This document shows, in pieces, positions 5,851 to 25,387 of a stretch of DNA of 47,170 nucleotides (positions are counted from its first letter, which is position 1; the number at the start of each line of letters is the position of its first letter). Source of the DNA: an uncultured Pseudacidovorax sp. (lineage in GTDB: Bacteria > Pseudomonadota > Gammaproteobacteria > Burkholderiales > Burkholderiaceae_C); contig NZ_CAJYES010000120.1 in the NCBI RefSeq assembly GCF_913773995.1, forward strand, positions 1 through 47,170. Reading direction: 5' to 3'. The notes below the pieces were generated by a model, which was not told the DNA's origin, did no database searches, and saw only the letters and a program-made list of their open reading frames with translations. The position numbers were made by a program, and so were the translations under genes.

Positions 5851-6591
5851 ATGTCGGGCACCACCGCAGCGCGGCGACGCGCACTGGTGACCGGCGGTGC
5901 CCGCGGCATCGGCGCGGCCATCGTCCGGCGTCTGGCGGCCGACGGGCTGGAGGTCTGGTGCGCCGACCTTGACGCCGATGCAGCCCGGGCGCTGGCGGCC
6001 GAGACAGACGCCAAGGCCTGCACGCTCGACGTCTGCGACTTCGACCGCGTGCATGCGGCACTGGCCGACATCGGCCCGCTCGACGTGCTGGTCAACAACG
6101 CGGGCGTGGACCAGCATGCCTTCTTCACGCAGACCGCGCCCGCCGACTGGCGCCGGCTGCTGGCCGTGAACCTGGAGGCCGTGCTCAACACCACCCATGC
6201 CGTGCTGCCTGGCATGCAGGCCCGCGGCCACGGCCGCATCGTCAATGTGGCTTCCGAGGCGGGCCGACTGGGCTCGCGCGGCGGCTCGGTCTATGCGGCC
6301 GCCAAGGGCGGGGTGATCGCCTTCACCCGCTCCATCGCACGCGAGAACGGCCGCAAGGGCATCACCGCCAACGTGGTGGCGCCGGGCCCCATCGACACAC
6401 CGCTGCTGCGGCAGGCCGTGGCGGCGGGCGGCGATCGGCTGATGGATGCCATGACGCAGGCCACGCTGCTGGGGCGCCTCGGCAGCGCGGAAGAAGTGGC
6501 GGCGGCCGTGGCCTTCCTGGCATCGGAGCAGGCCAGCTATGTGACGGGCGAGGTGCTGGGCGTCTCGGGCGGCATGGGGTGCGGGGCATGA
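5851..6591 (+). CDS. Short-chain dehydrogenase/reductase
   Basis: A 246-residue classical SDR. The dinucleotide-binding motif TGGARGIG is at 14-21, NNAG follows the fourth strand, and the catalytic residues S135, Y148 and K152 are all present (VASEAG, YAAAK). D40-x-D42 after the second strand suggests NAD(H) preference. In this setting it could oxidise the cis-dihydrodiol made by the dioxygenase or a 3-hydroxyacyl-CoA; the sequence does not decide. The start abuts the crotonase stop at 5850, and the stop overlaps the start of the esterase gene (ATGA), so it is inside a tight operon. Confidence 0.92.
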   Translation: MSGTTAARRRALVTGGARGIGAAIVRRLAADGLEVWCADLDADAARALAAETDAKACTLDVCDFDRVHAALADIGPLDVLVNNAGVDQHAFFTQTAPADWRRLLAVNLEAVLNTTHAVLPGMQARGHGRIVNVASEAGRLGSRGGSVYAAAKGGVIAFTRSIARENGRKGITANVVAPGPIDTPLLRQAVAAGGDRLMDAMTQATLLGRLGSAEEVAAAVAFLASEQASYVTGEVLGVSGGMGCGA

Positions 6592-8998: not shown

Positions 8999-9012
8999 GG
9001 AGCACGGACACC

Positions 9013-10215
9013 ATGGCACAAGGCATCAAGGACAAGGTCGCCATCCTCGGCATGGGCTGCAGCAAGTTCGGTGAGCGCTGGGACGCCAGCCCCGAGGACC
9101 TCATGCTGGAGGCCTACAACGAGGCCATTGCCGACGCCGGCATCGCGCCCGAGCAGCTGGGCGCGGCCTGGTTCTCGACCCACATGGACGACGTGGGCAC
9201 CGGCCGCGGCGGCACGCCCATGGGCATCGCGCTGCGGCTGCCCAACATCGGTGTCACGCGGGTGGAGAACTTCTGCGCCGGCGGCTCCGAGGCGGTGCGC
9301 GCGGCCGTCTACGCGGTGGCGGCTGGGGCCTGCGACATCGCACTGGCGCTGGGCGTGGAGAAGCTCAAGGACACCGGCTACGGCGGCCTGCCGATGGCCA
9401 CCGTCGGCACCTACATCCCGCAGTGGTATCCCAATGCGGTGGCGCCGGCCAACTTCGCGCAGCTGGCCACGGCGTACCGCGCCAAGCATGGCGTGGATGC
9501 CGCGCTGCTCAAGCGGGCCATCTCGCATGTGTCGATCAAGAGCCATGCCAACGGTGCCAAGAACCCCAAGGCCCATCTGCAGAAGCCGATCACCGAGGAG
9601 CAGTGCCTGAAGGCACCGACCATCGCGGCACCGCTGGGGCTGTTCGACTGCTGCGGCGTCTCGGACGGAGCGGCGGCCGTGATCGTCACCACGCCGGAGA
9701 TCGCGCGCAGCCTGGGCAAGACCGACCTCGTCACCTTCAAGGCCCTGCAGATCGCCACCTCCAACGGCTGGGAGCTGCAGTCCAGCGAATGGGACGGCAG
9801 CTATGTGCACACGGCCCGCGTCGCTGCTCGCCGCGCCTATGCGGAGGCCGGCATCGCCGATCCGCGCACCGGCATCAGCATGACCGAGGTGCACGACTGC
9901 TTCTCCATCACCGAGCTGGTGACCATGGAGGACCTGGGCCTGTCGGACGAAGGCCGCGCGGTCTATGACGTGCTCGACGGCGCCTTCGATGCCGACGGCC
10001 GCGTTCCCTGCCAGATCGATGGCGGGCTCAAGTGCTTCGGCCATCCGGTGGGCGCGAGCGGCATCCGCATGCTCTACGAGATCTACCTGCAGCTGCAGGG
10101 CCGGGCGGGCGCGCGCCAGTTGTCCAACCCGAAGACAGGGCTGATCCACAACCTGGGCGGGCAGCCGTCGCAGAACGTCTGCGCGGTGTCCATCGTGGGT
10201 CTGGAGGGCGTGTGA
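9013..10215 (+). CDS. Thiolase, SCP2/lipid-transfer type
   Basis: A 400-residue thiolase of the SCP2 (sterol-carrier-protein X) group, expected to split 3-ketoacyl-CoA with CoA or, in relatives, to act as a retro-aldolase. The nucleophile C88 (ENFCAGGSEA), H294 (VHDCFSITE) and H344 in the GHPVGASG motif are all present, which favours true thiolase activity over the Cys-less Ltp2-type aldolases. It sits directly behind the HMG-CoA-synthase-like/OB protein. In archaea, and in steroid degraders with DUF35 partners, such thiolases form complexes with OB-fold proteins, so a complex here is plausible. ATG 9013 has GAGG about 15 nt upstream. The stop overlaps the next start (GTGA). Confidence 0.9.
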   Translation: MAQGIKDKVAILGMGCSKFGERWDASPEDLMLEAYNEAIADAGIAPEQLGAAWFSTHMDDVGTGRGGTPMGIALRLPNIGVTRVENFCAGGSEAVRAAVYAVAAGACDIALALGVEKLKDTGYGGLPMATVGTYIPQWYPNAVAPANFAQLATAYRAKHGVDAALLKRAISHVSIKSHANGAKNPKAHLQKPITEEQCLKAPTIAAPLGLFDCCGVSDGAAAVIVTTPEIARSLGKTDLVTFKALQIATSNGWELQSSEWDGSYVHTARVAARRAYAEAGIADPRTGISMTEVHDCFSITELVTMEDLGLSDEGRAVYDVLDGAFDADGRVPCQIDGGLKCFGHPVGASGIRMLYEIYLQLQGRAGARQLSNPKTGLIHNLGGQPSQNVCAVSIVGLEGV

Positions 10216-11024
10216 CCGGGGAGGCAACGGCGGGCACGCCGGTCGTGCTGCTCGACCATCCGGCGCCCCACGTGGCGCGGCTGCGCATCAACCGCCCCGA
10301 CAAGCGCAACGCCATCGACCACGCGGTGCGCCAGGGCTTCATCGACCACCTCACGGTGCTGCTGGCCGACCCGCAGGAGCGGGCGCTGGTGCTGGGCGGC
10401 GTCGAAGGTGTCTTCTCCGCGGGCGGCGACATCCCCAGCATGGTGGGCCTGTCCGAAGGCCAGGCGCGCGAGCGCATGCAGCACATCCATGGCCTGTGCC
10501 GGCTGGTGGCCCACGCGCGCATTCCCGTGGTCAGCGCGATGGAAGGCGTGACGGCCGGTGCCGCCGTCGGCCTGGCGCTGCTGGGCGACCGCATCGTCAT
10601 CGGCCGCGGGGCGCGGGTGCTCTTTCCCTTCCTCAAGCTGGGCCTGGCACCCGACTGGGGCCAGCTGCTGACGCTGCCGCGCCGCGTCGGCCTGCCCGTG
10701 GCCCGGCGCCTGCTCAGCGACGGCCATGCCGTCGGTGGCGAAGAGGCAGTGCGCCTGGGCCTGGCGGATGCGGTTCACGACGATGACCGGGTGATGGCCG
10801 AGGCCGTGGCCCTGGCCGCCTCGCTGGCCCGCCTGCCCGGTGAGGCCTTCGCCCGGATGAAGCAGCGGCTGCACCATCCTTCCGCGTCGCTCGACGAGGA
10901 GCTGCATCGCGAAGAGGCCGACCAGGCCGTGTGCCTGACCGGCGAGGACTTCCGCGAGGGCTACGACGCGTTCGTGAACAAGCGCAGCGCCGACTTCATC
11001 GGCCGCACCGGAGCCGCACGATGA
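10212..11024 (+). CDS. Enoyl-CoA hydratase/isomerase family protein lacking hydratase glutamates
   Basis: A 270-residue crotonase starting at a GTG that overlaps the thiolase stop. CoA and oxyanion-hole features are seen: NRPDKRNAI (27-35), FSAGGD (68-73) and GVTAGAAVG (112-120). The first catalytic Glu position is Ala/Val (AGAAVGLAL). The second region reads LKLGLAPDWG, placing D148 where PaaG-type isomerases have their catalytic Asp. The protein is therefore more likely an isomerase or a specialised crotonase (for example a C-C bond hydrolase) than a hydratase. It is followed by a canonical hydratase with an ATGA overlap, suggesting sequential steps. Confidence 0.88.
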   Translation: MTGEATAGTPVVLLDHPAPHVARLRINRPDKRNAIDHAVRQGFIDHLTVLLADPQERALVLGGVEGVFSAGGDIPSMVGLSEGQARERMQHIHGLCRLVAHARIPVVSAMEGVTAGAAVGLALLGDRIVIGRGARVLFPFLKLGLAPDWGQLLTLPRRVGLPVARRLLSDGHAVGGEEAVRLGLADAVHDDDRVMAEAVALAASLARLPGEAFARMKQRLHHPSASLDEELHREEADQAVCLTGEDFREGYDAFVNKRSADFIGRTGAAR

Positions 11025-11821
11025 GCACCGATGCCAATGCCGTGAATGCCGGCGCCGAACTCGTCCTGCGCAGTCGTGAAGGCGCCGTGGGCCTGCTCGT
11101 GCTCAACCGGCCCGACAAGCGCAATGCGCTGGACCTGGCCATGCGCGCCGCCATCGCCGACGCCATGCGCGCGCTGGAGGCCGATGCCGAGGTGCGCGCC
11201 ATCGTCATCACCGGCGGCGACCAGGTGTTCGCCGCCGGTGCCGACCTCAACCTGCTGGTGGACAAGGGCGCGCAGGACGTCGCCGGGCTGGACCTGGGCC
11301 AGTACTGGGCACCCGTGGCCCAATCGCGCAAGCCCGTGATCGCGGCCGTCGGTGGCTTCGCGCTCGGCGCGGGCTGCGAGCTGGCGCTGATGTGCGACTT
11401 CATCGTGGCCGACGCCACCGCGCGGCTGGGCCAGCCCGAGCTGGCGGTGGGCATCATGCCCGGCGCAGGCGGCACGCAGCGGCTGGTGCGCAGCGTGGGC
11501 AAGCAGGTCGCGAGCCTGATGTTGCTGACGGCCGAACCGCTGACCGGTGAGCGCGCCTTCCAGCTGGGGCTGGTGGCCGAGCTGGCGCCCGAGGGCCAGG
11601 CGCTGGCGCGGGCGATGGAACTGGCGCGCAAGGCCGCACGCCTGCCGCCCAAGGCCGTCGAAGCCACCCGGCGCGTGCTGCGCCAGGGCGCCGACCTGCC
11701 GCTGGACGCCGCGCTGGCGCTGGAGAACCGCGAGTTCCTGCTGCTCTTCGACACCGAGGACAAGACCGAAGGCATGCGCGCCTTCCTCGACAAGCGCAAG
11801 CCGCAGTTCAACGGCCGCTGA
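11021..11821 (+). CDS. Enoyl-CoA hydratase, canonical two-glutamate type
   Basis: A 266-residue crotonase with both hydratase glutamates: E120 in ALGAGCELAL and E140 in LGQPELAVGIMPGAGG. The oxyanion-hole segment FAAGADL (70-76) and the ending KRKPQFNGR are typical. It should add water to a 2-enoyl-CoA to give the 3-hydroxyacyl-CoA used by the dehydrogenase encoded next. The start overlaps the previous gene (ATGA). Of the four crotonases in the window this is the only one with the full hydratase site. Confidence 0.92.
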   Translation: MSTDANAVNAGAELVLRSREGAVGLLVLNRPDKRNALDLAMRAAIADAMRALEADAEVRAIVITGGDQVFAAGADLNLLVDKGAQDVAGLDLGQYWAPVAQSRKPVIAAVGGFALGAGCELALMCDFIVADATARLGQPELAVGIMPGAGGTQRLVRSVGKQVASLMLLTAEPLTGERAFQLGLVAELAPEGQALARAMELARKAARLPPKAVEATRRVLRQGADLPLDAALALENREFLLLFDTEDKTEGMRAFLDKRKPQFNGR

Positions 11822-11857: not shown

Positions 11858-13378
11858 ATGGCCACGTCATCAAACACCACCACGATCGGCGTCGTCGGCG
11901 CCGGCACCATGGGCCGCGGCATCGTGCAGCTCTTCCTGCAGGCCGGCCACACCGTGCGCTGCCACGACGCCCAGCCGGGCGCGGCCGCCAAGGCCGTCGA
12001 CTACGTCGACGGCATGCTCGCCCGCGCCGTCGAGAAGGGCCGCATGGCGGCGGCCGACCACCAAGCCGCGCGCGGCCGGCTCCATGCCTGCAGCGCGCTC
12101 GAAGAACTGGCCGACTGCACGCTGGTCATCGAGGCCATCGTCGAGGACCTGGAGGCCAAGCGCAGCCTGTTCCGGCAACTGGAATCGTTCGTCGCCGACG
12201 ACGCCATCCTGGCCAGCAACACTTCCTCGCTCACGGTGGCCGAGATCGCCGCCGCCTGTGCCCGGCCCGGGCGCGTGGCCGGGCTGCACTTCTTCAACCC
12301 GGTGCCGCTGATGAAGGTGGCCGAGGTCATCGCTGCGGTGCGCACGGCGCCGGCCGTGGTGCAGCGCCTGTGCGCGCTCACCGAGTCGGCCGGCCACCGC
12401 GCGGTGGTCACGGCCGACCAGCCGGGCTTTCTCATCAACCATGCGGGCCGCGGCCTCTATACCGAGGGCCTGCGCATCGTGGAAGAGCAGGTCGCCAGCC
12501 CCGCCGACGTGGACGACGTGCTGCGCGAGGCGCTGGGCTTTCGCATGGGGCCCTTCGAGCTGCTCGACCTGACGGGCCTGGACGTGTCGGCACGGGTGAT
12601 GGCCTCGATCTTCGAGCAGTTCCAGCACGAGCCGCGCTTCCGTCCCTCGTCGCTGGTGCCGCCGCGGGTGGCGGCCGGACTCTTCGGCCGCAAGAGCGGG
12701 GAGGGCTGGTACCGCTATGAAGAGGGCCAGCAGCAGCGGCCGAAGGTGCGGCCGGTGCCGGACTTGCCGGCCGGCCTGGCGGTGTGGGTGGATCCGCAGG
12801 CCAGCGGTGCAGAAGGGTTGCGCGCGCTGGCCGAGGCCGCGGGCGCACGCGTGCTCGCTCACCCGGCCGATGCCGACCTGCTGCTCCTGCAGCCCTGGGG
12901 CGAGGACGCCACCACCGCCGCACTGCGCCGGGGCCTGGATGCCGCGCGCTGCGTGGCCGTGGACCCGCTGCCGCCGCTCGCCCTGCGCCGCACGTTGATG
13001 CTCACGGCGGTCACCGCACCGGCGGTGCGCGATGCCGCCCATGCCCTGCTCGCGGCCGACGGCACGACCGTCACCGTGATCAACGACAGCCCCGGCTTCA
13101 TCGCGCAGCGGGTGATGGCGACCATCGTCAACATCGCCGCCAACATCGCGCAGCGCGGCATCGCCAGCGTGCCCGACCTGGAAGACGCCGTCCGCCTGGG
13201 GCTGGGCTATCCCCGCGGCCCCCTGGGCTGGGGCGACCACCTGGGCGCGGGCCGCCTGCTGCAGGTGCTGCAGGCGCAGCTGGCGGCCACGGGCGACCCG
13301 CGCTACCGCCCCGCCGCCTGGCTGCAGCGCCGCGTGGCGCTGGGCCTGCCCCTGACCACCGCCGAGGCGCGGCGCTGA
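11858..13378 (+). CDS. 3-hydroxyacyl-CoA dehydrogenase (PaaH-like, long form)
   Basis: A 506-residue NAD-dependent L-3-hydroxyacyl-CoA dehydrogenase. The NAD loop is GAGTMG (14-19), the catalytic His is H144 (GLHFFNPVPLMK), and SNTSS is at 120-124. A first C-terminal dehydrogenase domain spans roughly 185-285. A linker and a second, degenerate Rossmann/C-terminal copy (PGFIAQRVMATIVN, about 410-500) give the 500-residue length seen in PaaH/3-hydroxyadipyl-CoA dehydrogenases. It would oxidise the product of the hydratase at 11021 to the 3-ketoacyl-CoA cut by the thiolase at 9013. Thirty-six bp separate it from the hydratase gene, so it is likely in the same transcript. The phenylacetate-pathway symbol is withheld because no other paa gene is present. 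Confidence 0.9.
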   Translation: MATSSNTTTIGVVGAGTMGRGIVQLFLQAGHTVRCHDAQPGAAAKAVDYVDGMLARAVEKGRMAAADHQAARGRLHACSALEELADCTLVIEAIVEDLEAKRSLFRQLESFVADDAILASNTSSLTVAEIAAACARPGRVAGLHFFNPVPLMKVAEVIAAVRTAPAVVQRLCALTESAGHRAVVTADQPGFLINHAGRGLYTEGLRIVEEQVASPADVDDVLREALGFRMGPFELLDLTGLDVSARVMASIFEQFQHEPRFRPSSLVPPRVAAGLFGRKSGEGWYRYEEGQQQRPKVRPVPDLPAGLAVWVDPQASGAEGLRALAEAAGARVLAHPADADLLLLQPWGEDATTAALRRGLDAARCVAVDPLPPLALRRTLMLTAVTAPAVRDAAHALLAADGTTVTVINDSPGFIAQRVMATIVNIAANIAQRGIASVPDLEDAVRLGLGYPRGPLGWGDHLGAGRLLQVLQAQLAATGDPRYRPAAWLQRRVALGLPLTTAEARR

Positions 13379-13436: not shown

Positions 13437-14753
13437 ATGACCCAACCCCATTACGACGCCATCGTCATCGGCGCCGGCGCAGGCGGCATGAGCGCCGCTG
13501 CTTACCTGGTGGCCGCCGGCCGCAAGGTGCTGATCGTGGAGTCGCAGGACCGCCTCGGCGGCCGCGCCTCCAGCGAGGAGATCGACGGCTTCATCGTCAA
13601 CCGCGGCGCCATCGCCATCGAGCGTGGCAGCGGCTTCGAGCAGACCTTCGACCTGCTGGGTGTGCCACTGGATGTGCGCGAACCGCAGCCGGCCACCGTC
13701 TTCCGCATCGACGGCAAGATCATCGACCCGAGCAAGGGTGGCGGCTGGAACCTGATCATCGGCGGGCTGACCAAGGCCGCCGCCAAGATCGGCGCCACCT
13801 TCGGCGATGTGCGCAAGGGCAACACCGAGCTGCCCGAAGAGGCGCTCAGCACCGAGGAATGGCTGCGCAAGTTCACCAGGAACCAGACGGTGCACCGGCT
13901 GTTCCGCAACCTGTGCGCCGCCATCTGGGCGGCCAATGCCGACGAGCTGCCGGCGCGGGCCTTCCTCACCTACTTCTCCTTCAAGGGCGCCTTCAAGCGC
14001 TTCGGCTTCTGCCCGCGCGGCACCATCGGCCTGTGGAACGACCTGGGTGACGCCATCCGTGCGCGCGGCGGCGAGATCTGGCTCGACACGCCGGTCACGC
14101 GCATCCATGTCGAAGGCGGCCGCGCCATCGGCGTGGACGTGGTACGCAACGGCCAGACCCAGCGCGTCGATGCGCGCGTGATCATCAGCAACATCGGCCC
14201 GGCGGCCACGGTGCCGCTGGCGGGCGAGGCCGCCCTGGGTGCGGACTATGTGGCCAAGGTGCGCCGCGTGCTGCGCCCGGCCGCCAACATCGTCGTCAAC
14301 TTCGCCACCCGCGAGCGGCTGATCGACCTGCCGGGCCTGGTCACCTTCGCCAACACGGAGCGGTTGTGCAACATGGGCGAGCTGACGGCCATGTGCCCGG
14401 AGATGGCGCCGCCCGGCTGGCACCTGTACGTGGCCTACGTGGTGCCCAAGCCCGCGCTGGGCGACTTCGACGAGAAGGCCGAGACCGAGCTGGGACTGCA
14501 GGACCTGCGCAACGAATTCCCGAGCTTCAAGGACGCGAAGATGCTGTCGATCCGCGTCATGCGCGGCGAGTGGCCGGCCCAGCGCTCCTGCGCCGGCTAC
14601 GACCTGCCGCAGGAGACGCCGCTGCCCAATCTGTGGAACGTGGGCGACGCCGTGAAGGACTACGGCGGCGGCGGCACCCAGGCCTGCGTCGACACCGGCC
14701 GCGAGGCCGCGCACAAGGCCCTCGCGGTGCTGGGCGTGGGCGGGCCCGCATGA
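13437..14753 (+). CDS. FAD-dependent oxidoreductase, phytoene desaturase/amine oxidase-like
   Basis: A 438-residue flavoprotein. The FAD motif GAGAGGMSAAAYL starts near residue 12, followed by the second-strand E and GGRASSEEIDGF (about 41-52), and a C-terminal FAD-contact segment NLWNVGDAVKDYGGGGTQACVDTG. This layout is that of the CrtI/carotenoid-desaturase and amine-oxidase group, which remove hydride from C-C or C-N bonds or isomerise polyenes. In a CoA-ester operon a ring dehydrogenation or a hydride transfer on an alicyclic intermediate is plausible but unproven. A strong GGAGA precedes the ATG. The stop overlaps the start of the long acyl-CoA dehydrogenase gene, so the two are coupled. 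Confidence 0.82.
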   Translation: MTQPHYDAIVIGAGAGGMSAAAYLVAAGRKVLIVESQDRLGGRASSEEIDGFIVNRGAIAIERGSGFEQTFDLLGVPLDVREPQPATVFRIDGKIIDPSKGGGWNLIIGGLTKAAAKIGATFGDVRKGNTELPEEALSTEEWLRKFTRNQTVHRLFRNLCAAIWAANADELPARAFLTYFSFKGAFKRFGFCPRGTIGLWNDLGDAIRARGGEIWLDTPVTRIHVEGGRAIGVDVVRNGQTQRVDARVIISNIGPAATVPLAGEAALGADYVAKVRRVLRPAANIVVNFATRERLIDLPGLVTFANTERLCNMGELTAMCPEMAPPGWHLYVAYVVPKPALGDFDEKAETELGLQDLRNEFPSFKDAKMLSIRVMRGEWPAQRSCAGYDLPQETPLPNLWNVGDAVKDYGGGGTQACVDTGREAAHKALAVLGVGGPA

Positions 14754-16438
14754 CCGGCGCGCAGTTCCCGCACCCGCATGCGGCCGAGGCCCGCGACGTG
14801 CTCACGCACCTGCGCCGCACCTTCGACCAGTCCGTCCGCAACCTCGCCGAGCAGTGCCTGGAGTCCGGCCGCCTGAGCGCCGGCCGCCTCGATGCCCACC
14901 AGATCGCGGCCTTCGAGCTGGCCTGGGCCGGTGCCGAGCTCCTGGCCGCCGAAACCGCCATCGCCTCGCTGGCCGCGCAGGCCGATCCGCTGGAAGCCCA
15001 GCTGGCGCTGGTCTTCGCCACCGACGCCATCGTCGCCCTGCTGGACCGCCTGGACGTGATCGCCGCCGAAGCCGGCATGGCGCCCGATGCCGTCGATGCC
15101 CTGCGCAGCCTGCCTGCCTGGCGCGCATTGCGCGCCGCAACGGGCAGCGCCGCCGCCCTGCGCGCGGCCGGCCGCGGCGTCGTCGAAGCCCAGGGCCTGG
15201 TCGGCGAGGTCGCGCTCGACGAGCCGCATGCCCTGGCGCAGGACGCCTTTCGCCGCTTCGCCGCCGAGGTGGTGGCGCCGCAGGCCGAGGCCATCCACCG
15301 GCACGACCTCACGGTGCCCGAATCGCTGCTGCAGCCCATGCGCGAGATGGGCGTCTTCGGCCTGGCCATTCCCGAATCGCACGGCGGCAGTGCGCCGGAC
15401 GACCGCGAGGACACGTTGCTCATGGTGGTGGTGACCGAGGCGCTGTCTGAAGGCTCGCTGGCTGCGGCCGGCAGCCTGATCACGCGGCCCGAGATCCTGA
15501 CCCGCGCGCTGATGGCCGGCGGCACCGAGGCGCAGAAGGCGCACTGGCTGCCGCGGCTGGCGGCAGGCGACTCGCTGTGTGCCATCGCCATGACCGAGCC
15601 CGACTGCGGCTCGGACCTGGCAGCCTGCCAGCTCAAGGGCACGCGCACCGAAGGCGGCTGGCTGCTCAATGGCGCCAAGACCTGGTGCACCTTCGCCGGC
15701 AAGGCCAGCGTGCTGATGGTCGTCACCCGCACCGATCCCGACCGCGCGCTCGGCCACAAGGGCCTGTCGGTGCTGCTGGCCGAAAAGCCCGCCTTCGACG
15801 GCCACAGCTTCGAGGCGCAGCAGCCCGGTGGCGGCAGGCTCAGCGGCCGGGCGATCCCGACCATCGGCTACCGCGGCATGCATTCCTTCGACCTCGCCTT
15901 CGAGGACTACTTCGTGCCCGATGCCAACGTGGTCGGCGGCGAAGCAGGCCTCGGCAAGGGCTTCTACTACACGCTGTCGGGCATGGTCGGCGGCCGCATG
16001 CAGACCTCCGCCCGTGCCTGCGGCGTGATGCGCGCTGCGCTGCGTGCGGCCGTGCGCTACACGCAGGACCGCAAGGTCTTCGGCGCCCCGCTGGCCGACC
16101 TGGCCCTCACGCAGGCCAAGCTGGCGCGGATGGCCGCGCGGCTGGCGGCCTGCCGGCGCCTGGCCTATGCGGTGGCCCGCATCGTGGACACGGGCGAGGG
16201 CCGGATGGAGGCCAGCCTGGTCAAGCTGCTGGCCTGCCGCTCGGCCGAGCTGGTCACGCGCGAGGCGCTGCAGCTGCACGGCGGCATGGGTTATGCCGAG
16301 GAGACGGCGGTCAGCCGCTACTTCGTCGACGCCCGCGTGCTGTCGATCTTCGAGGGCGCCGAGGAGACGCTGGCGCTCAAGGTGGTGGCCCGCAGCCTGA
16401 TGGAACGCGCGCTCGGCCTCGGATCATCAGGAAACTGA
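14750..16438 (+). CDS. Acyl-CoA dehydrogenase with N-terminal extension, methylsuccinyl-CoA dehydrogenase-like
   Basis: A 562-residue flavoprotein, far longer than the usual 380-400 residues. About 160 mainly helical residues precede a complete acyl-CoA dehydrogenase body: FGLAIPESHGGS, the FAD/substrate segment MTEPDCGSDLA, RKVFGAPLADL, and the C-terminal LHGGMGYAEE. The catalytic base is probably E535 (IFEGAEETL). To my knowledge (2S)-methylsuccinyl-CoA dehydrogenases (Mcd) of the ethylmalonyl-CoA pathway are of this length and carry an N-terminal extension. The next gene is Mct-like, and Mct acts on mesaconyl-C1-CoA, the product of Mcd. The specific call is inference; the family call is firm. 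The ATG overlaps the preceding stop. Confidence 0.85.
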   Translation: MTGAQFPHPHAAEARDVLTHLRRTFDQSVRNLAEQCLESGRLSAGRLDAHQIAAFELAWAGAELLAAETAIASLAAQADPLEAQLALVFATDAIVALLDRLDVIAAEAGMAPDAVDALRSLPAWRALRAATGSAAALRAAGRGVVEAQGLVGEVALDEPHALAQDAFRRFAAEVVAPQAEAIHRHDLTVPESLLQPMREMGVFGLAIPESHGGSAPDDREDTLLMVVVTEALSEGSLAAAGSLITRPEILTRALMAGGTEAQKAHWLPRLAAGDSLCAIAMTEPDCGSDLAACQLKGTRTEGGWLLNGAKTWCTFAGKASVLMVVTRTDPDRALGHKGLSVLLAEKPAFDGHSFEAQQPGGGRLSGRAIPTIGYRGMHSFDLAFEDYFVPDANVVGGEAGLGKGFYYTLSGMVGGRMQTSARACGVMRAALRAAVRYTQDRKVFGAPLADLALTQAKLARMAARLAACRRLAYAVARIVDTGEGRMEASLVKLLACRSAELVTREALQLHGGMGYAEETAVSRYFVDARVLSIFEGAEETLALKVVARSLMERALGLGSSGN

Positions 16439-16439
16439 C

Positions 16440-17657
16440 ATGAGCAACAGCATCCTCGCCGGTCTGCGCGTCGTGGAGGCCGCGGCCTTCGTGGCCGCGC
16501 CGCTCGGCGGCATGACGCTGGCGCAGATGGGCGCCGACGTGATCCGCATCGATCCCTTGCACGGCGGCCTGGACCATCGCCGCTGGCCGGTCACGGCCGA
16601 CAACACCAGCCTCTTCTGGTGCGGCCTGAACAAGGCCAAGCGCTCGGTGGCGCTGGACCTGGCCTCGGCCGAAGGGCGCGAGATCGCCATGGCCCTGGCC
16701 TGCGCGCCGGGCGAGGACGCGGGGCTCTTCCTCACCAACTTCCCGGCGCGCGGCTGGCTGACGCACGAGGCGTTGCGTGCGCGCCGACCGGACCTGATCC
16801 AGCTCACGCTCACGGGCGACCGGCATGGCGGCTCGGCGGTCGACTACACCGTCAACGCCCGCCTGGGGCTGCCCCACATGACCGGCCCCGTCGACGCCGA
16901 AGGCGTGGTCAACCATGTGCTGCCGGCCTGGGACCTGATCACCGGCCAGATGGTGGCCGTGGGCCTGCTGGCCGCCGAGCGGCACCGCCGGCGCACCGGC
17001 GAGGGCCAGCATGTGAAGCTGGCGCTGGAGGACGTGGCCCTGGCCGTGATGCAGCACCTGGGCTTCATCGCCGAGGCGCAGCAGGGCCAGCCGCGCGAAC
17101 GCCACGGCAATGCGCTGTTCGGCGCCTTCGGTCGCGACTTCGTGACGGCCGATGGCCAGCGCGTGATGGTGGTCGGCCTCACGCTCAAGCAGTGGCGCGC
17201 GCTGGTCGAGGCCACCGGCTGTGCCGACGCGGTGGCGGCCCTGGCCAGCCAGCGCGGCGTGGACCTGGACCGCGAGGGCGAGCGCTTCCGCGCCCGTGAA
17301 GAACTGGCTGCGCTGATCGGCCCATGGATCGCGGCGCGGCCTTTCGCCCAGGTGGCCGCGGCCTTCCAGCAGCATGGCGTGTGCTGGAGCCGCTACCAGG
17401 ACGTGGCCGCTCTGGCGCGCGATCCCGAATGCTCGCCGGCCAATCCGCTCTTCACCCGCGCCGCGCAGCCCGGTGTGGGGGAGATGCTGCTGGCGGGTCT
17501 GCCGCTGGACTTCGGCGCCGCGCCGCGCCAGCCGGCCCGGCCGGCGCCGCAGCTGGGCGCGGACACCGAAGCGGTGCTGTCCGAGCTGCTGGGCATCGAC
17601 GCCGCCTGCTTCGGCCGCCTGCACGACCGGGGTGTCGTGCAGCAGGTCAGGGGCTGA
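16440..17657 (+). CDS. CaiB/BaiF CoA transferase, mesaconyl-CoA C1-C4 transferase (Mct)-like
   Basis: A 405-residue family III CoA transferase. From memory it follows Chloroflexus aurantiacus Mct (2-methylfumaryl-CoA isomerase) through distinctive blocks: RVVEAAAFVAAPLGGMTLAQ (10-29), GGLDHRRWPVT (42-52), SLFWCGLNKAKRS (57-69), FLTNFPARGWL (97-107), VDYTVNARLGLPHMTGP (134-150) and NHVLPAWDLITGQ (158-170). D165 is the expected nucleophile. Mct moves CoA within one molecule, converting mesaconyl-C1-CoA to mesaconyl-C4-CoA. It starts 2 bp after the stop of the Mcd-like gene. It is clearly distinct from the other two CaiB/BaiF proteins in the window, which have racemase-like or general features. 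Confidence 0.85.
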   Translation: MSNSILAGLRVVEAAAFVAAPLGGMTLAQMGADVIRIDPLHGGLDHRRWPVTADNTSLFWCGLNKAKRSVALDLASAEGREIAMALACAPGEDAGLFLTNFPARGWLTHEALRARRPDLIQLTLTGDRHGGSAVDYTVNARLGLPHMTGPVDAEGVVNHVLPAWDLITGQMVAVGLLAAERHRRRTGEGQHVKLALEDVALAVMQHLGFIAEAQQGQPRERHGNALFGAFGRDFVTADGQRVMVVGLTLKQWRALVEATGCADAVAALASQRGVDLDREGERFRAREELAALIGPWIAARPFAQVAAAFQQHGVCWSRYQDVAALARDPECSPANPLFTRAAQPGVGEMLLAGLPLDFGAAPRQPARPAPQLGADTEAVLSELLGIDAACFGRLHDRGVVQQVRG

Positions 17658-17668
17658 CACGGCCGTGA

Positions 17669-17851
17669 TTCGAGGCAACTGAGGAATACGGCCTCGAAGG
17701 CCTGGCCTTGCTGTGGGACTGCCCGATCCGTCGCCGCGTGCGCAGCATTCACATCTGCATCGTGCGCGACGCCCAGCTGTGCCGCGACGAAGCCTACATG
17801 GAGACCTCGGTGCTTCAGGCGTTGATGGGCCTGCCTTCGGCGTCGAGCTGA
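17669..17851 (+). pseudogene. Probable 3' remnant of an unidentified gene
   Basis: An open frame of 60 codons with no usable upstream start begins right after an in-frame stop at 17666. It reads EEYGLEGLALLWDCPIRR and then HICIVRDAQLCRDEAYMETS, with native-looking high-GC third positions. It looks like the C-terminal part of a small enzyme, possibly NTF2/SnoaL-like. Its end overlaps the end of the convergent TetR gene. No intact version or start site is visible, so I treat it as a decayed gene tail. I cannot name the family with certainty. Confidence 0.4.
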
Positions 17852-18435
17852 ACGAAGCCCACCGTCCACAGCGCCGACACCCGCGCGGCCAGCTCGCGCG
17901 GCGGGATCTGGCCGCTCTTGCGGTACCAGGTGAAGGTCCAGATCATCATGCCGAAGAGCAGCAGCGAGTAGGGCTTGCGCGCCTTGGGGTCGCGCATGAC
18001 GGTGGGGTTTATCTCGCCGAGCAGCTGCTCCAGCAGGTCGGCCAGTTCCACTTCCATGACGCGGATCTGCTCGCGCTCGGCGCGCGGCAGGAACTTGAGG
18101 TCGGCCATCAGGATGAGGTGTTCGCTGCGCGAGCGGGCCGCGCCCTGCACGAAGCTGTCGATGAAGCGAGCGAAGCGTTCCTCTGCCGGCAGCGGCAGGG
18201 CCACGATGGCCCGCAGCTCGGCGGTCTGCTGTGCGATGTGCTCGTGCACGACGGCGAAGAGCAGGTCCTCCTTGCTGGGGAAGTAGTGATACAGGTGGGA
18301 CTTGGAGGCGTTGCAGGCCTTGGCCACATCCATCATCGTGGCCTGGTCGAAGCCTTTGCGGGCAATCAGCGCAGCCGCCTTCTCCAGGATGGCGCGCTTC
18401 TTGTCCTCATAGTCGTCTGCACGGGTGCGTGTCAC
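17815..18435 (-). CDS. TetR/AcrR family transcriptional regulator 1
   Basis: A 206-residue repressor-type protein. The N-terminal helix-turn-helix spans about residues 12-55 (ILEKAAALIARKGF, DVAKACNASKSHLYHYFPSKEDLL). The recognition helix is close to that of the second TetR in this window (26610-27206), so the two are paralogues and may read the same operator. The C-terminal ligand domain (from about 60) has the helix pattern of PaaR-like regulators that respond to CoA thioesters; the ligand itself is not identifiable. Translation starts at GTG with AAGGA upstream. Operator copy 3 lies 53-72 bp upstream and overlaps a TAATAT -10-like box, which suggests autorepression and joint control of the ferredoxin reductase gene. 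Confidence 0.88.
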   Translation of the reverse strand: MTRTRADDYEDKKRAILEKAAALIARKGFDQATMMDVAKACNASKSHLYHYFPSKEDLLFAVVHEHIAQQTAELRAIVALPLPAEERFARFIDSFVQGAARSRSEHLILMADLKFLPRAEREQIRVMEVELADLLEQLLGEINPTVMRDPKARKPYSLLLFGMMIWTFTWYRKSGQIPPRELAARVSALWTVGFVQLDAEGRPINA

Positions 18436-18537: not shown

Positions 18538-19800
18538 ATGAACATGGAGACAGCACATCAAGCGCACTGGGATTTGATCGTGATCGGCGCCGGCCATGCC
18601 GGCAGCGAACTGGCTGTGGCCACGCGTCAGGCGGGCTGGGCCGGCAGCATCCTGCTGCTCGGCGACGAGCCCGGCCTGCCCTACCACCGGCCGCCGCTCT
18701 CCAAGGCCTATCTCGGCGGCGAGATGGATACCGACGCCCTGGCGCTGCGACCCGATGCCGCCTATGAGCGGGCAGGCGTGGTGCGCCGCAGCGGCGTGCG
18801 CGTGGTGGCCATCGACCGGGCCCGGCACGAACTGGTGCTGGCCGACACGGGCGAGCGGCTGCATTACGGCAAGCTGGCGCTGTGCACCGGCGGCCGACCC
18901 CGGCCCTACCGCTGCGAGGGCATCGATCCCGCGCGTCCGCCGTCCAACCTGCTGTACCTGCGCACGGCCGCCGACGCGGACCGGCTGCGCGCCTACGTCG
19001 AGCCGGGCGCCCGGCTGGTGGTGGTGGGCGGCGGCTATGTGGGCCTGGAGGTGGCGGCCTCGGCCACCAAGGCCGGCATGCAGGTGACGGTGCTCGAGTC
19101 GCAGCCCCGTGTGCTGGCGCGTGTGGCGGGTCATCGGCTGTCGCAGTTCTACGAGGACGAGCATCGACGGCACGGCGTGGACATCCGGACCGGCATGCAG
19201 GTGCGCGCGGTGCAGTGCAGGGACGGCGCCATCACCGCGCTGGAAGGCGCTGATGGCGAGCGCATCGAGGCCGACGTGGTGGTGGCCGGCATCGGCATGG
19301 AGCCCGAGGTGCAACTGGCGGTCGAGGCGGGCCTCGCCGCGGCCGACGGCATCCCGGTGGACGCGCACGGCCAGACGGCCGACCCCGACGTGTTCGCCGC
19401 GGGCGACTGCACGCGGCATGTGCACCCGGCCTACGAGCGGGATGTGCGCATCGAGTCGGTGCCCAACGCGCTGGAGCAGGCCCGCGCCGTCGCCGGCTGG
19501 CTGGGCGGCAAGCCCAAGCCGTACACGGCGATCCCGTGGTTCTGGTCGGACCAGTACGACCTCAAGCTGCAGATGGCCGGCCTGTCGCAGGGCCATGACC
19601 AGTGCGTGCTGCGCGGCGATCCGGCGACACGCAGCTTCTGCGCGTTCTACCTGAAGGGCGACCAGCTGCTGGCCATCGACGCGGTGAACCGGCCCGCCGA
19701 CTTCATGCTCGTGCGGCGCGCCATGGCCCAGCCGCTGACGGTCGATGCGGCACGTCTCGCGGACGAGTCGCAGCCGCTCAAGCCGATGCTGCAGGCTTGA
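18538..19800 (+). CDS. Ferredoxin reductase, rhodocoxin/putidaredoxin reductase type
   Basis: A 420-residue FAD protein that moves electrons from NAD(P)H to a [2Fe-2S] ferredoxin. The FAD motif is GAGHAG (17-22), the second nucleotide motif VVGGGYVGLEVA lies near 160, and the FAD-contact segment DVFAAGDCTRH is near 284-294. The C-terminal domain (IPWFWSDQYDLKLQMAG) is the one expected in putidaredoxin-reductase-like enzymes and ring-dioxygenase reductases. No other reductase is encoded in the window, so it most likely serves the ferredoxin at 2621 and the dioxygenase at 3065, 15 kb away but behind the same kind of operator. A second ATG two codons in (18544) is an equal start candidate. Confidence 0.9.
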   Translation: MNMETAHQAHWDLIVIGAGHAGSELAVATRQAGWAGSILLLGDEPGLPYHRPPLSKAYLGGEMDTDALALRPDAAYERAGVVRRSGVRVVAIDRARHELVLADTGERLHYGKLALCTGGRPRPYRCEGIDPARPPSNLLYLRTAADADRLRAYVEPGARLVVVGGGYVGLEVAASATKAGMQVTVLESQPRVLARVAGHRLSQFYEDEHRRHGVDIRTGMQVRAVQCRDGAITALEGADGERIEADVVVAGIGMEPEVQLAVEAGLAAADGIPVDAHGQTADPDVFAAGDCTRHVHPAYERDVRIESVPNALEQARAVAGWLGGKPKPYTAIPWFWSDQYDLKLQMAGLSQGHDQCVLRGDPATRSFCAFYLKGDQLLAIDAVNRPADFMLVRRAMAQPLTVDAARLADESQPLKPMLQA

Positions 19801-19856: not shown

Positions 19857-19884
19857 TTGATAGTCCGACTCGTCGGTCTAATTA
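19857..19884 (+). promoter_or_regulatory. Promoter with TetR-type operator, copy 4
   Basis: TAGTCCGACTCGTCGGTCTA (19861-19880) is the copy closest to the consensus. TTGATA (19857-19862) and TAATTA (19879-19884), 16 nt apart, form a promoter-like pair around it, in the direction of the ABC importer operon. The predicted transcript start, near 19891, would lie just inside the annotated first gene, whose ATG is at 19886 and has no Shine-Dalgarno sequence. Confidence 0.6.
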
Positions 19885-19885
19885 T

Positions 19886-20725
19886 ATGGATTCAGATCAC
19901 AACAACTCCACCCCGGCGGCCGCCGCGCCGCCCGCGCTGGCGATCCGCAGCCTGCAGGTCGTCTACGGCGGCGCCATCGAGGCCGTGCGCGACGTGTCGC
20001 TCGAAGTGCGCCCGGGTCAGATCGTCGCGCTGCTGGGCTCCAACGGCGCCGGCAAGTCGACGGTGCTCAAGGCCGTGTCGGGCGTGCTCGATGCCGAGGA
20101 CGGCGAGATCGACAAGGGCAGCATCGAGCTCTTCGGCCGCCCGATCAAGCAGGCCGGTGCGCCCGACATCGTGCGCCAGGGCATGGTGCAGGTGCCCGAA
20201 GGCCGCCGGCTGTTCGCCACGCTCACGGTGGAAGAGAACCTGATGGCCGGCGCCCATACGCGCAGCACCGCCGAACTGGCCGAGGCCCGTGAGCGCGTGT
20301 TCCGCCTCTTTCCGCGACTGGTGGACAAGCGCAGCACCGTGGCCGGCTACCTCTCGGGCGGCGAGCAGCAGATGGTCGCCATCGGTCGCGCCCTCATGAG
20401 CCGGCCGCGCGTGCTGGCGCTGGACGAGCCTTCGCTCGGGCTGGCGCCGCTGGTGGTGGCCGAGATCTTCGACAGCGTGCAGCGGCTGCGTGCCGACGAG
20501 GGCGTGACCATCCTGCTGGTGGAGCAGAACGCCAGCCGCGCCCTCGCCCTCTGCGACTACGCCTACATCATGGAAAACGGCCGTGTGGTGCTCGACGGCA
20601 CCGGCGAGCAGTTGCGCCGCAACGCCGACGTGCGCGAGTTCTACCTCGGCCTGTCCTCCGGATCTGGCCGTACACACATGAAAGACGTCAAACACTACAA
20701 GCGCCGCAAGAGGTGGCTGTCATGA
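19886..20725 (+). CDS. Branched-chain-type ABC importer, ATP-binding protein (LivF-like)
   Basis: A 279-residue ATPase. Walker A is GSNGAGKST (51-59), followed by the Q-loop region MVQVPEGRRLFATLTVEENL typical of LivF, the signature LSGGEQQ and Walker B VLALDEPSLGLAP. It would energise uptake together with the LivG-like, LivH-like, LivM-like and binding proteins encoded downstream. The C-terminus is longer than usual and ends in a basic stretch (KDVKHYKRRKRW). The start is uncertain: the only in-frame ATG at 19886 has no ribosome binding site and lies at the edge of the operator. No good start occurs before the ATPase fold begins. The stop overlaps the next start (ATGA). Confidence 0.9.
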   Translation: MDSDHNNSTPAAAAPPALAIRSLQVVYGGAIEAVRDVSLEVRPGQIVALLGSNGAGKSTVLKAVSGVLDAEDGEIDKGSIELFGRPIKQAGAPDIVRQGMVQVPEGRRLFATLTVEENLMAGAHTRSTAELAEARERVFRLFPRLVDKRSTVAGYLSGGEQQMVAIGRALMSRPRVLALDEPSLGLAPLVVAEIFDSVQRLRADEGVTILLVEQNASRALALCDYAYIMENGRVVLDGTGEQLRRNADVREFYLGLSSGSGRTHMKDVKHYKRRKRWLS

Positions 20726-21567
20726 GCGCCCACACGGTCGCTCCCGCGGGCACGCGCGCCGCAGGCAGGCCGGGGGTCCCTGCTGGCTTCGATATCCCTG
20801 TGCTGGAGGCACGCAACATCTCCAAGCGCTTCGGCGGCGTCAAGGCCGTCAATGACGTGAGCCTGCGCGTGATGCCCGGCGAGATCGTGAGCCTCATCGG
20901 CCCCAATGGCGCCGGCAAGACCACCACCTTCAATCTGGTGAGCGGCGTGCTGCCGCCCAGTGCCGGGCAGATCCTGTTCGAGGGTCGCGACACCGCGGGG
21001 CTCAAGTCCTCCGACTTCGCGGCCCTGGGCATCGGCCGCACCTTCCAGAACCTGGCACTGTTCCGCAACGGCACGGTGGTCGAGAACCTGCTGGTGGGCC
21101 GGCACATCCACTTCCGCTACAGCATCCTGGAGTCGCTGGTCTTCTGGGGCCGGCCGCGGCGCGAGGAGATCGCGGCCCGCGAGCGGGTGGAGCAGATCAT
21201 CGAGTTCCTGGAGATCGAGGAGCTGCGCGACAAGCCCGTCTCGCAGCTGGCCTACGGCCAGCAGAAGCGGGTGGAGCTGGGCCGCGCGCTGGCCTGCGAG
21301 CCCAAGCTGCTGCTGCTCGACGAGATCGTGGCCGGCATGAACCGCGAGGAGAAGGAGGACATTGCCCGCTTCACCCTCGATATCCGCGACGAGTTCGGCA
21401 TTGCCGTACTCATGATCGAGCATGACATGCAGGTGGTGATGGACCTGTCGGACCGCATCTACGTGCTGGACTTCGGCGCGCTGATCGCCGAGGGCACACC
21501 CGAGGAGATCGCCGCCGACCCGCAGGTGCTGAAGGCCTACCTGGGCGAGGAGGGCGGCCATGCTTGA
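20722..21567 (+). CDS. Branched-chain-type ABC importer, ATP-binding protein (LivG-like)
   Basis: A 281-residue ATPase. Walker A is GPNGAGKTT (60-68) and the Q-loop segment IGRTFQNLALF is typical of LivG. The signature is degenerate (LAYGQQKRVELGRAL) and Walker B ends LLLLDEIVAGMN, where most LivG proteins have DEP; the catalytic Glu is kept. The H-loop (MIEHDM) is present. The last 8 bp overlap the acyl-CoA synthetase gene. A 25-residue Ala/Pro-rich leader precedes the fold. Partner of the ATPase at 19886. Confidence 0.92.
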   Translation: MSAHTVAPAGTRAAGRPGVPAGFDIPVLEARNISKRFGGVKAVNDVSLRVMPGEIVSLIGPNGAGKTTTFNLVSGVLPPSAGQILFEGRDTAGLKSSDFAALGIGRTFQNLALFRNGTVVENLLVGRHIHFRYSILESLVFWGRPRREEIAARERVEQIIEFLEIEELRDKPVSQLAYGQQKRVELGRALACEPKLLLLDEIVAGMNREEKEDIARFTLDIRDEFGIAVLMIEHDMQVVMDLSDRIYVLDFGALIAEGTPEEIAADPQVLKAYLGEEGGHA

Positions 21568-23419
21568 CCATGCCACCCTGTTGAACGGCGAGGGCACGCT
21601 GCCCGCACTGCTGCGCCACCGCGCGCAGGAGCGGGGCGCACAGGTCGCGCTGCGCGAGAAGGTGCAGGGCGTCTGGCGTGGGCGGACCTGGGCTGACTAC
21701 TACCGCGACGCGCGCCGCACCGCACTCGGGCTGATGAAGCTGGGCCTGCAGCGCGGCGACCGCATCGTGATCGCGGCCGAGGACGTGCCCGAGTGGTTCT
21801 ATGCCGACCTGGGGGCGCAGATGCTGGGCGTGCAGGTGGTCGGCATCTACCCCACGAACCCGTGGGCCGAGGTGCTCTATATCGCCGGCCACTGCCAGGC
21901 GCGGGTGGCCATCACCGGCGACCAGGAGCAGACCGACAAGGTGCTGGAGGCCATGCAGCAGGGCGATGGCCTGCCGCATCTGCAGCACATCTTCTGCGTC
22001 GACATGAAAGGCATGCGCCGCTACGAGCCGGGCCGGCCGCATGCGTTCGACCACCTGATGGCGCTGGGCGACCAGCTGGCGCAGGAGGACCCGCTGGCCG
22101 AGCAGCGGCTGGACCGCAGCATCGACAGCCTCGTGCCGGACGACGTGAACATCCTGGTCTACACCTCCGGCACGACGGGCCCGCCCAAGGGCGCGATGCT
22201 GACGCACCGCAACTTCATCTTCGCGGCCTATTCGTATGCGAGCGCGCGAGGCATGGTGGGCCAGCGCTTCGAGTCGGTCTGCTATCTGCCCTTGTGCCAC
22301 GTGGCCGAACGCGGCTACTCGACCGTGCTGCATCTGCTGATGGGCGGCTGCGTGAACTTCGCCGAGTCTGTGGACACCGTGTCCGCCAACATCCGCGAGA
22401 TCGCGCCGACCTTCTTCCTCGGTGTGCCGCGCATCTGGGAAAAGCTGCAGCAGCACTTCGAGTTCCGCATGAAGGACAGCGGTCGCCTGCAGCGCTGGCT
22501 CTACCGCAAGGGCATGCAGCAGGGCCGCGTGCTGTCGGACCGGCGGGCCGAACACGGGCGACTGGTCCGCCTGGGCGACCGGCTCGCCTTCGGCATGTGG
22601 TGGCTGCTGCTGTTTCGCAACATGCAGCGGCACATGGGGCTCAACCGGACGCACACGCGCATGTGCGGTGGTGCCTCCGTGTCGCCGGAGACGCTCAAGT
22701 TCTTCGACATCATCGGGCTGCCGGTGGGCCAGGGCTACGGTCTTACCGAGGCGGGCGGGCTGGCTTTCGTCCAACAGCCGGGCCGGCCGTTCGTGCCCGG
22801 CAGCTGCGGTCCGGCCATGCCCGGTGTGCAGTGGCGGCTGGGCAGCGACGGCGAGATCTTCGTGCGCTCGCCCGGCGTGTTCCGCGGCTACCTGTTCGAC
22901 GACAAGGGCACCCGCGACATCCTTTCCGAAGACGGCTGGCTCGCCACCGGCGACATCGTGGAACAGCGTGCCGGCGACGAAATCGCGGTGGTCGACCGCA
23001 AGAAGGCCATCATCATCACGAGCGGCGGCAAGAACATTGCCCCTTCGGAGATCGAGAACGCGCTCAAGGACAGCCCCTTCGTGCGCGAGGCCATCGTGGT
23101 GGGCGACGGCCGGCACTTCCTGGGCGGGCTGATCCAGATCGACTTCGACACGGTCGGCCGCTGGGCCACCGAGCAGGGGCTGCAATACACCACCTTCAAG
23201 TCGCTGACCCTCATGCAGGAGGTGGTGGCACTCGTGCAGGGCGTGGTCGACGAGGTCAACACCCGCTTCGCCCGCGTCGAGAACATCCGCAAGTTCGTGC
23301 TGCTGGAAAAGGAGCTCGACCACGACGACGGCGAACTCACGGCCACGCAGAAGGTGCGTCGCGGGCTCATCGACAAGAAGTTCGCGCGCGAGCTGCAGCT
23401 CATCTACGGCAAGTCCTGA
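21560..23419 (+). CDS. AMP-forming acyl-CoA synthetase (long-chain FadD/ACSL-like)
   Basis: A 619-residue adenylating enzyme that converts a carboxylic acid, ATP and CoA to the acyl-CoA. The P-loop YTSGTTGPPKG is at 201-211, the A5 motif GQGYGLTEAGG follows, and the hinge and catalytic segments GWLATGD and DRKKAIIITSGGKNIAPSEIE (quoted in part: ITSGGKNIAP) are intact. The length and the NPWAEVLYI and EKLQQHFEF blocks place it with long-chain/bubblegum-type synthetases rather than benzoate-CoA ligases. Lying inside the ABC-transporter operon, it probably activates the imported acid at the membrane. It overlaps the LivG-like gene by 8 bp. Confidence 0.92.
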   Translation: MLDHATLLNGEGTLPALLRHRAQERGAQVALREKVQGVWRGRTWADYYRDARRTALGLMKLGLQRGDRIVIAAEDVPEWFYADLGAQMLGVQVVGIYPTNPWAEVLYIAGHCQARVAITGDQEQTDKVLEAMQQGDGLPHLQHIFCVDMKGMRRYEPGRPHAFDHLMALGDQLAQEDPLAEQRLDRSIDSLVPDDVNILVYTSGTTGPPKGAMLTHRNFIFAAYSYASARGMVGQRFESVCYLPLCHVAERGYSTVLHLLMGGCVNFAESVDTVSANIREIAPTFFLGVPRIWEKLQQHFEFRMKDSGRLQRWLYRKGMQQGRVLSDRRAEHGRLVRLGDRLAFGMWWLLLFRNMQRHMGLNRTHTRMCGGASVSPETLKFFDIIGLPVGQGYGLTEAGGLAFVQQPGRPFVPGSCGPAMPGVQWRLGSDGEIFVRSPGVFRGYLFDDKGTRDILSEDGWLATGDIVEQRAGDEIAVVDRKKAIIITSGGKNIAPSEIENALKDSPFVREAIVVGDGRHFLGGLIQIDFDTVGRWATEQGLQYTTFKSLTLMQEVVALVQGVVDEVNTRFARVENIRKFVLLEKELDHDDGELTATQKVRRGLIDKKFARELQLIYGKS

Positions 23420-23430
23420 GGAATAAAAGC

Positions 23431-25349: not shown

Positions 25350-25387
25350 TTCCCCCCCGAGCAAGACGACTTCCAATGGAGACAACC

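Follow-up and report, generated by a model that had tools for sequence, protein, structure and literature searches.

Methylsuccinyl-coenzyme A (CoA) dehydrogenase (Mcd) and mesaconyl-CoA C1-C4 transferase (Mct) have been described chiefly in cycles of carbon fixation and acetate assimilation. In the aerobic phenylacetate (paa) pathway, the ring is opened in CoA-bound form, with no ring-cleavage dioxygenase involved, and the enzymes PaaF and PaaH act on the adipyl-type chain that results. We analyzed a 47,170-nucleotide stretch of DNA from an uncultured Pseudacidovorax sp. (hereafter the window; NZ_CAJYES010000120.1, contig C120 of a 5.4-Mb genome), in which a predicted Mcd and an Mct-like protein are encoded side by side at the end of a run of genes that begins with a Rieske ring-hydroxylating oxygenase. 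With a probability of about three in four, this pair forms the terminal part of an operon for aerobic catabolism that would convert methylsuccinyl-C1-CoA to acetyl-CoA and pyruvate after attack on a ring. The tail leading from methylsuccinyl-CoA to acetyl-CoA and pyruvate is well supported as a prediction by homology and synteny; how the ring is opened and where the methylsuccinyl-CoA comes from we infer.

The same route, from methylsuccinyl-CoA through mesaconyl-C4-CoA and citramalyl-CoA to acetyl-CoA plus pyruvate, is followed by the itaconate/methylsuccinate cluster of Pseudomonas aeruginosa and Cupriavidus necator. According to PMC12290011, the dehydrogenase of that cluster acts directly on the C4 ester and requires no Mct, whereas the pathway in the window is predicted to pass through the C1 ester, for which reason an Mct would be needed. 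The mml pathway of methylaromatics uses ortho cleavage and methylmuconolactones, and no such genes were found among the open reading frames (ORFs) of the window that were tested. A first-pass annotation, made from the letters and ORF translations alone, had recognized no described aerobic pathway in which a Rieske dioxygenase is joined to this exit; that statement must be narrowed, as the mml pathway, likewise aerobic, already gives methylsuccinyl-CoA as a thiolysis product (PMC6449761, citing Marin 2010), but its joining to the present gene set still looks new, and no description of the cluster appeared among the literature matches listed (titles, abstract beginnings and open-licence PMC texts). 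Compared with the paa pathway, the cluster has similar PaaF- and PaaH-like enzymes for an adipyl-type chain, but it carries a Rieske oxygenase instead of PaaABCE, has no recognized PaaZ, and is predicted to yield methylsuccinyl-CoA instead of succinyl-CoA.

The dehydrogenase and the transferase

Both genes lie on the forward strand, the Mcd gene at 14750..16438 (562 aa) and the Mct-like gene at 16440..17657 (405 aa); the first overlaps the end of the upstream flavin adenine dinucleotide (FAD)-oxidoreductase gene by 4 bp, and a gap of 1 bp separates it from the second. This matches the arrangement given in the first-pass annotation, as does the N-terminal extension reported there, since approximately 158 residues precede the acyl-CoA dehydrogenase domains and the first Pfam match begins at residue 159. 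The best PDB match was 8ciw (737 bits over residues 10-555), compared with 280 bits for 6es9, the Paracoccus denitrificans Mcd of the ethylmalonyl-CoA (EMC) pathway, and 224 bits or less for ordinary acyl-CoA dehydrogenases. An AlphaFold2 model (pLDDT 88) aligned to 8ciw in Foldseek with a TM-score of 0.95 and 63% identity, in contrast to 33% identity in the Foldseek alignment with 6es9; the title of 8ciw is methylsuccinyl-CoA dehydrogenase of Pseudomonas migulae with bound FAD and (2S)-methylsuccinyl-CoA. Both solved enzymes have the N-terminal extension in common with the window protein, of which the nearest named relatives are in Pseudacidovorax intermedius NS331 (96% identity) and Pseudacidovorax sp. 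NFM-22 (94%), so that the host is Pseudacidovorax-like (Comamonadaceae).

In a 72-row tree of Mcd proteins (24 of 96 rows dropped as near-duplicates or short; quick search, very distant outgroups), 8ciw nests in the clade of the window's Mcd and its relatives, next to members from Zhongshania, Spongiibacter, Haliea and Pseudomaricurvus that have the same cluster, while 6es9 falls outside this clade with three plasmid-borne proteins (support for the split, 99). The dehydrogenase thus groups with a crystallized (2S)-methylsuccinyl-CoA dehydrogenase and not with ordinary acyl-CoA dehydrogenases, as the first-pass annotation had proposed. Substrate-binding residues of 6es9, namely three carboxylate-binding arginines and a methyl pocket, were assigned in PMC5798300. 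The arginines correspond to R246, R375 and R422 of the window protein and are kept in 92/92 non-outgroup rows; the catalytic Glu, E535, is kept in 91/92, the exception being a truncated row. These residue counts, like those for the transferase below, omit tblastn stretches with an internal stop and the truncated transferase of locus L024; the dehydrogenase of Variovorax sp. SRS16 (L040) was omitted because its match ran beyond a stop, and the four residues were conserved in a separate alignment. With full-length homology that includes the extension, nesting with 8ciw, and the arginines and Glu in place, assignment of the protein as a predicted (2S)-methylsuccinyl-CoA dehydrogenase of the P. 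migulae type is well supported by comparison.

For the transferase, a CaiB/BaiF protein of class III, the highest family score was 561.6 bits to TIGR04253 (2-methylfumaryl-CoA isomerase), followed by 122 bits for the next family. It scored 541 bits against both Mct structures of the 3-hydroxypropionate bicycle, 7xkg and 8apq, while the other 26 PDB matches at E 1e-5 reached no more than 99 bits, so the likeness to Mct is far beyond chance. Blocks noted in the first pass align with these two enzymes (GGMTLAQ[M/L]GADVIR and SLFW[C/A]GLNK[A/G]KRS), and the Asp165 singled out there aligns with Asp165 of Roseiflexus Mct. Asp165 and Arg47, proposed as catalytic in Mct in PMC9196870, are found in 77/77 non-outgroup rows, and Arg47 in none of the three outgroup CaiB rows. 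In a 64-row tree (16 of 80 rows dropped as near-duplicates or short; quick search with SH-aLRT support only and three very distant outgroup rows), the window protein groups with proteobacterial sequences in a clade of 40 rows (support 83) that stands beside a separate 19-row clade (95) holding the Chloroflexi enzymes 7xkg and 8apq, and three other CaiB proteins of the same genome are placed far from both. Its membership in the Mct family, in the wide sense, is well supported, and we predict it to be an intramolecular mesaconyl-CoA C1-C4 transferase.

Conservation of the cluster and the missing enzymes

We compared the 80 best of 371 Mcd loci, a sample in which tallies lean to close relatives and several loci are short. 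Of the 80, 56 have Mct no more than 300 bp away from Mcd, and 62 have it anywhere in the locus. We counted a locus as having the core cluster when three or more of the five core genes matched with an identity of 45% or higher. This was so in 26/80 loci from beta-, gamma- and alphaproteobacteria, with Mct adjacent in all 26; the hosts include Hydrogenophaga, Comamonas, Caenimonas, Variovorax, Bradyrhizobium, Spongiibacter and Zhongshania, as well as Haliea, Nevskia, Hydrocarboniphaga and Alcanivorax. In every core genome searched (16/16, with contigs matched by coordinates), the Rieske alpha subunit gave one match at E <1e-100 with 66-91% identity, which lies on the strand of Mcd at a distance of 4.9-18 kb. 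That search covered 16 of the 26 core loci and left out L047, L048, L049, L053, L081 and L092; beyond it, L075 and L079 show Rieske alpha in the locus, and L044 and L045 correspond to contigs L025 and L024, both showing it. On a plasmid of Variovorax sp. SRS16, the genes from Rieske alpha to Mct have the same order as in the window. The Rieske alpha match in the genome of L060 (G103:C10:11954-13312) contains one TGA, which may lie in a non-coding part before the true start.

Several loci differ in their surroundings. On the IncP plasmid pAKD34 (L039, 19947-22857), the segment with Mcd and Mct is flanked by ISPps1 and ISCsp2 transposase genes. Mcd and Mct occur with a gene of the acetyl-CoA hydrolase/transferase family in L041 (19956-24201), L093, L095, L099, L100, L101, L103 and L121, and core locus L079 has such a gene too; annotation of L041 adds an oligonucleotide-binding (OB)-fold protein and a thiolase nearby, and L093, L099 and L103 have a distant thiolase, together with a small protein that looks similar by eye. 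These loci possibly serve a different methyl-branched substrate. Genes like those for resistance-nodulation-division exporters and for DUF1302/DUF1329 proteins often accompany hydrophobic substrates, and in Alcanivorax sp. S71-1-4 (L113, 14728-21312) such genes follow the cluster, as judged by eye.

Two enzymes of the predicted tail, a hydratase and a citramalyl-CoA lyase, had been reported as absent from the window. In relatives, a two-domain FAS1/MaoC-type hydratase is encoded between the 3-hydroxyacyl-CoA dehydrogenase and Mcd in 16/26 core loci, with a CitE/RipC-like lyase also in that place in 8/26; both lie within 8 kb of Mcd in 12/80 loci. Hydratase, lyase, Mcd and Mct are contiguous in L027 (genome G048), and in Paraburkholderia sp. 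D15 the hydratase and lyase genes are a few kb from Mcd-Mct. None of the lyases reaches the cut-off for RipC or citE, and no NCBIfam family matches the hydratases at the thresholds used, so that these enzymes are named by family and context. The reported absence was right for the window itself, where a MaoC gene (33787-34266) does occur but was rejected as a mesaconyl-CoA hydratase: BLAST at 1e-5 did not match it to any of the Mcd-linked hydratases, and it was also absent among its own genome's matches to them. It did not hold for the genome, in which the search for a lyase yielded candidates on two other contigs. One hydratase of the Mcd-linked type is encoded on contig C42 (11199-12011, E 3e-80), adjoined by a CaiB gene and a lyase gene, and this hydratase and lyase are 58% and 46% identical to the Mcd/Mct-linked pair of Paraburkholderia D15; a second lyase candidate, on C190, resembles the lyase of the Variovorax operon more closely. 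All core genomes searched for the hydratase (11/11) have it. Among 100 relatives it occurred in 8/8 that bear Mct and 25/92 others (Fisher p = 7.5e-5, a value that ignores kinship, with three genomes belonging to one genus), which offers weak support.

A possible route and its alternatives

The operon upstream of Mcd runs in the same direction, from the Rieske alpha subunit (3065..4357, +; the ORF opens at 2642, and the start was set by where the relatives' matches begin) and beta subunit (4354..4848, +) to the FAD-dependent oxidoreductase. A divergent [2Fe-2S] ferredoxin (2621..2941, -) and a downstream ferredoxin reductase (18538..19800, +; AndAa/HcaD-like, below cut-offs) are predicted to complete the oxygenase system. 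Together with a CoA ligase (21560-23419, +), this three-component oxygenase would initiate degradation of an acid that carries a methyl group and is probably aromatic, and whose ring would be opened without a ring-cleavage dioxygenase; none was recognized in the run from Rieske to Mct, in which not every short ORF was tested. By Pfam and NCBIfam, and with the same limit, the run has no other acyl-CoA dehydrogenase, and the chain therefore probably arrives unsaturated, as after the opening of a dearomatized ring. The ring opener could be ECH2 (10212..11024, +; enoyl-CoA hydratase/isomerase family), the hormone-sensitive-lipase (HSL)-type alpha/beta hydrolase (6585..7538, +) or the FAD protein (13437..14753, +; amine-oxidase/phytoene-desaturase type), the last of which is present in 19/26 core loci and gave a structure model of low confidence (mean pLDDT 65).

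The PaaF-like hydratase ECH3 (11021..11821, +), the PaaH-like 3-hydroxyacyl-CoA dehydrogenase (11858..13378, +) and an SCP2-type thiolase (9010..10215, +) would then complete beta-oxidation of a 4-methyladipyl-type chain, with thiolysis of a 4-methyl-3-oxoadipyl-type CoA ester giving acetyl-CoA and (2S)-methylsuccinyl-C1-CoA. By carbon bookkeeping on the phenylacetate pathway, a methyl group in para position is expected on C4 of the resulting adipyl chain. Mcd would oxidize methylsuccinyl-C1-CoA to mesaconyl-C1-CoA, passing electrons to electron-transferring flavoprotein, and Mct would shift CoA within the molecule through an anhydride at Asp165 to give mesaconyl-C4-CoA; a hydratase, here probably the one on C42, would form citramalyl-CoA, and a lyase would split this into acetyl-CoA and pyruvate. 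Ibuprofen degradation reportedly involves a thiolase-type retro-aldol cleavage. Cleavage of that kind, as in steroid aldolases (PMC12329534), is made less likely for the window's thiolase by its retained catalytic Cys (FCAGGS).

Our most specific version of this scheme is tentative, and we would sooner bet against it than for it as a whole: a widespread, undescribed aerobic pathway in which the Rieske oxygenase dearomatizes a para-methyl aryl CoA ester or acid, a hydrolase opens the ring without a ring-cleavage dioxygenase, and PaaF/PaaH-like enzymes with an SCP2 thiolase complex feed (2S)-methylsuccinyl-C1-CoA and acetyl-CoA into the Mcd, Mct, hydratase and lyase steps. Such a pathway would be a counterpart of phenylacetate degradation for methyl-bearing rings, with a separate exit.

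A number of observations weigh against placing the pair at the end of such a catabolic operon. The Mct-like score is below the NCBIfam equivalog cut-off of 725, and Arg314' of Mct (PMC9196870) is replaced by Gly in the window, with Arg in only 10/80 aligned rows. PaaF and PaaH also score under their cut-offs, as ECH3 reached 267 bits of 371 for PaaF, its second-best family after PRK08138 (311 of 355), and the dehydrogenase reached 411 of 669 for PaaH, its second-best, exceeding the cut-off for subfamily PRK08268 only; these scores are suggestive of an adipyl-type chain and fall short of proof. Neither a ring-opening enzyme nor a growth substrate was identified from the window ORFs tested, among which Pfam and NCBIfam recognized no PaaZ-type or other ring-opening hydrolase. 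The hydratase was unseen in 10/26 core loci and the lyase in 18/26, some of these stretches being short, and the C42 hydratase and lyase, which stand next to a further CaiB gene, may belong to a different route. Since this type of hydratase occurs in 33/100 relatives anyway, its presence alone is not diagnostic. Of the 56 loci in which Mcd and Mct are adjacent, 30 showed no core (again with some short stretches), and the pair is therefore not tied to the core cluster.

The methyl pocket weighs in the same direction. Ala285 and Phe287 of P. denitrificans Mcd are replaced by Ile279 and Met281 in the window protein and Glu380 by Ser379, and according to PMC5798300, Ile at the Ala position of the Rhodobacter sphaeroides Mcd gave an inactive enzyme. 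Even so, 8ciw itself has Ile, Ile and Ser at these three positions, so that it agrees with the window at the first and third and has Ile in place of Met281; because its pocket too differs from that of the EMC enzyme, the window protein and 8ciw are best classified, on sequence comparison, as a second Mcd type and not as the EMC type. Plasmids of Azospirillum, Ancylobacter and Sphingomonas (L148, 8192-13203; L149, 8992-11886; L043, 14995-17840) encode Mcd proteins of the EMC-like type, with Ala285, Phe287 and Glu380 kept, either next to an Mct gene or in its vicinity, and two Mcd types are thus paired with Mct.

The altered pocket also speaks for an alternative that we consider improbable: the pair could act at an earlier step, its substrate being a larger, branched CoA ester of a dicarboxylic acid that ring opening produces, with CoA swapped between the carboxyls so that the other end is oxidized. 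A precedent is the transferase ThnP, of family I and not class III, with the dehydrogenase ThnO in anaerobic naphthalene degradation (PMC11659651). This reading must contend with crystallization of the closest solved relative, 8ciw, with (2S)-methylsuccinyl-CoA, with the contiguous set of L027, in whose 20-kb stretch no Rieske homolog was found, and with recurrence of the pair in the 30 loci where the core is unseen. Slightly less probable still is a free-standing module for methylsuccinate or mesaconate utilization that merely neighbors the Rieske operon. Mcd and Mct do occur without the cluster genes in Ramlibacter loci (e.g. L057, L069 and L111), and C. necator grows on free methylsuccinate, degraded through an itaconate-type cluster (PMC12290011), but the overlapping or 1-bp junctions with upstream genes, the synteny in 26/80 loci across three proteobacterial classes and the constant proximity of Rieske alpha to Mcd in the core genomes searched all speak against this reading. 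That the pair is a piece of the EMC pathway, from which Mcd is known (PMC5798300), or of another acetate-assimilation cycle is very unlikely and was rejected, as no crotonyl-CoA carboxylase/reductase (Ccr) in the genome passes the TIGR01751 cut-off (below it lie 16 weaker matches; Ecm was not searched for), 6es9 branches apart, and the neighboring genes look catabolic.

The first-pass view of the pair as a catabolic tail gained support from the placement of the two proteins, neither of which showed the grouping that would have refuted it, from the Ccr search and from relatives that carry the hydratase and lyase inside the cluster. Under this interpretation, the P. migulae-type Mcd and the proteobacterial Mct clade would have a likely function in the cell other than carbon assimilation by such cycles. 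Only recently did it become clearer where methylsuccinate comes from, when gut bacteria were shown to make it from itaconate; the cluster predicts another, intracellular and aerobic source of methylsuccinyl-CoA, beside the mml pathway. Growth screens offer a way to seek its substrate, since strains that carry the cluster are named for Hydrogenophaga, Variovorax, Comamonas, Caenimonas, Bradyrhizobium and Spongiibacter.

Other genes of the window

Between the oxygenase and the thiolase lie ECH1 (5065..5850, +), an enoyl-CoA hydratase/isomerase family protein with PaaG among its best scores, a short-chain dehydrogenase/reductase (5851..6591, +) with BadH as the best NCBIfam score, both below cut-off, and a 3-hydroxy-3-methylglutaryl (HMG)-CoA-synthase-like protein (7535..8998, +), a likely partner of the thiolase. 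The C-terminal extension of the latter looks by eye like OB-fold/DUF35, a reading that one relative's annotation shares. The protein lacks a Cys where the archaeal HMG-CoA synthase 6esq_I has one, as does PhlA (5m3k); its synthase-like domain may be structural or use other chemistry. Downstream of Mct, a TetR-family regulator (17815..18435, -), probably of this cluster, is found in 18/26 core loci. Genes for a branched-chain-amino-acid-type ATP-binding cassette importer follow (19883..26545, +; by Pfam, with the first ATPase gene, 19883-20725, assigned by eye), and the acyl-CoA ligase gene lies amid them, a layout that is similar in several relatives.

Two further runs lie beyond the importer. 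At 27424-31167, a separate TetR-flanked run encodes an acyl-CoA dehydrogenase, a CaiB protein, a DUF2889 protein and a PaaG-like enoyl-CoA hydratase, and its dehydrogenase, CaiB and hydratase also occur in both Pseudacidovorax relatives. On the reverse strand at 31247-34266, a CaiB/MaoC pair adjoins type II dehydroquinase and shikimate-dehydrogenase genes, and the top score of this CaiB protein was to succinate-glutarate CoA-transferase, below cut-off.

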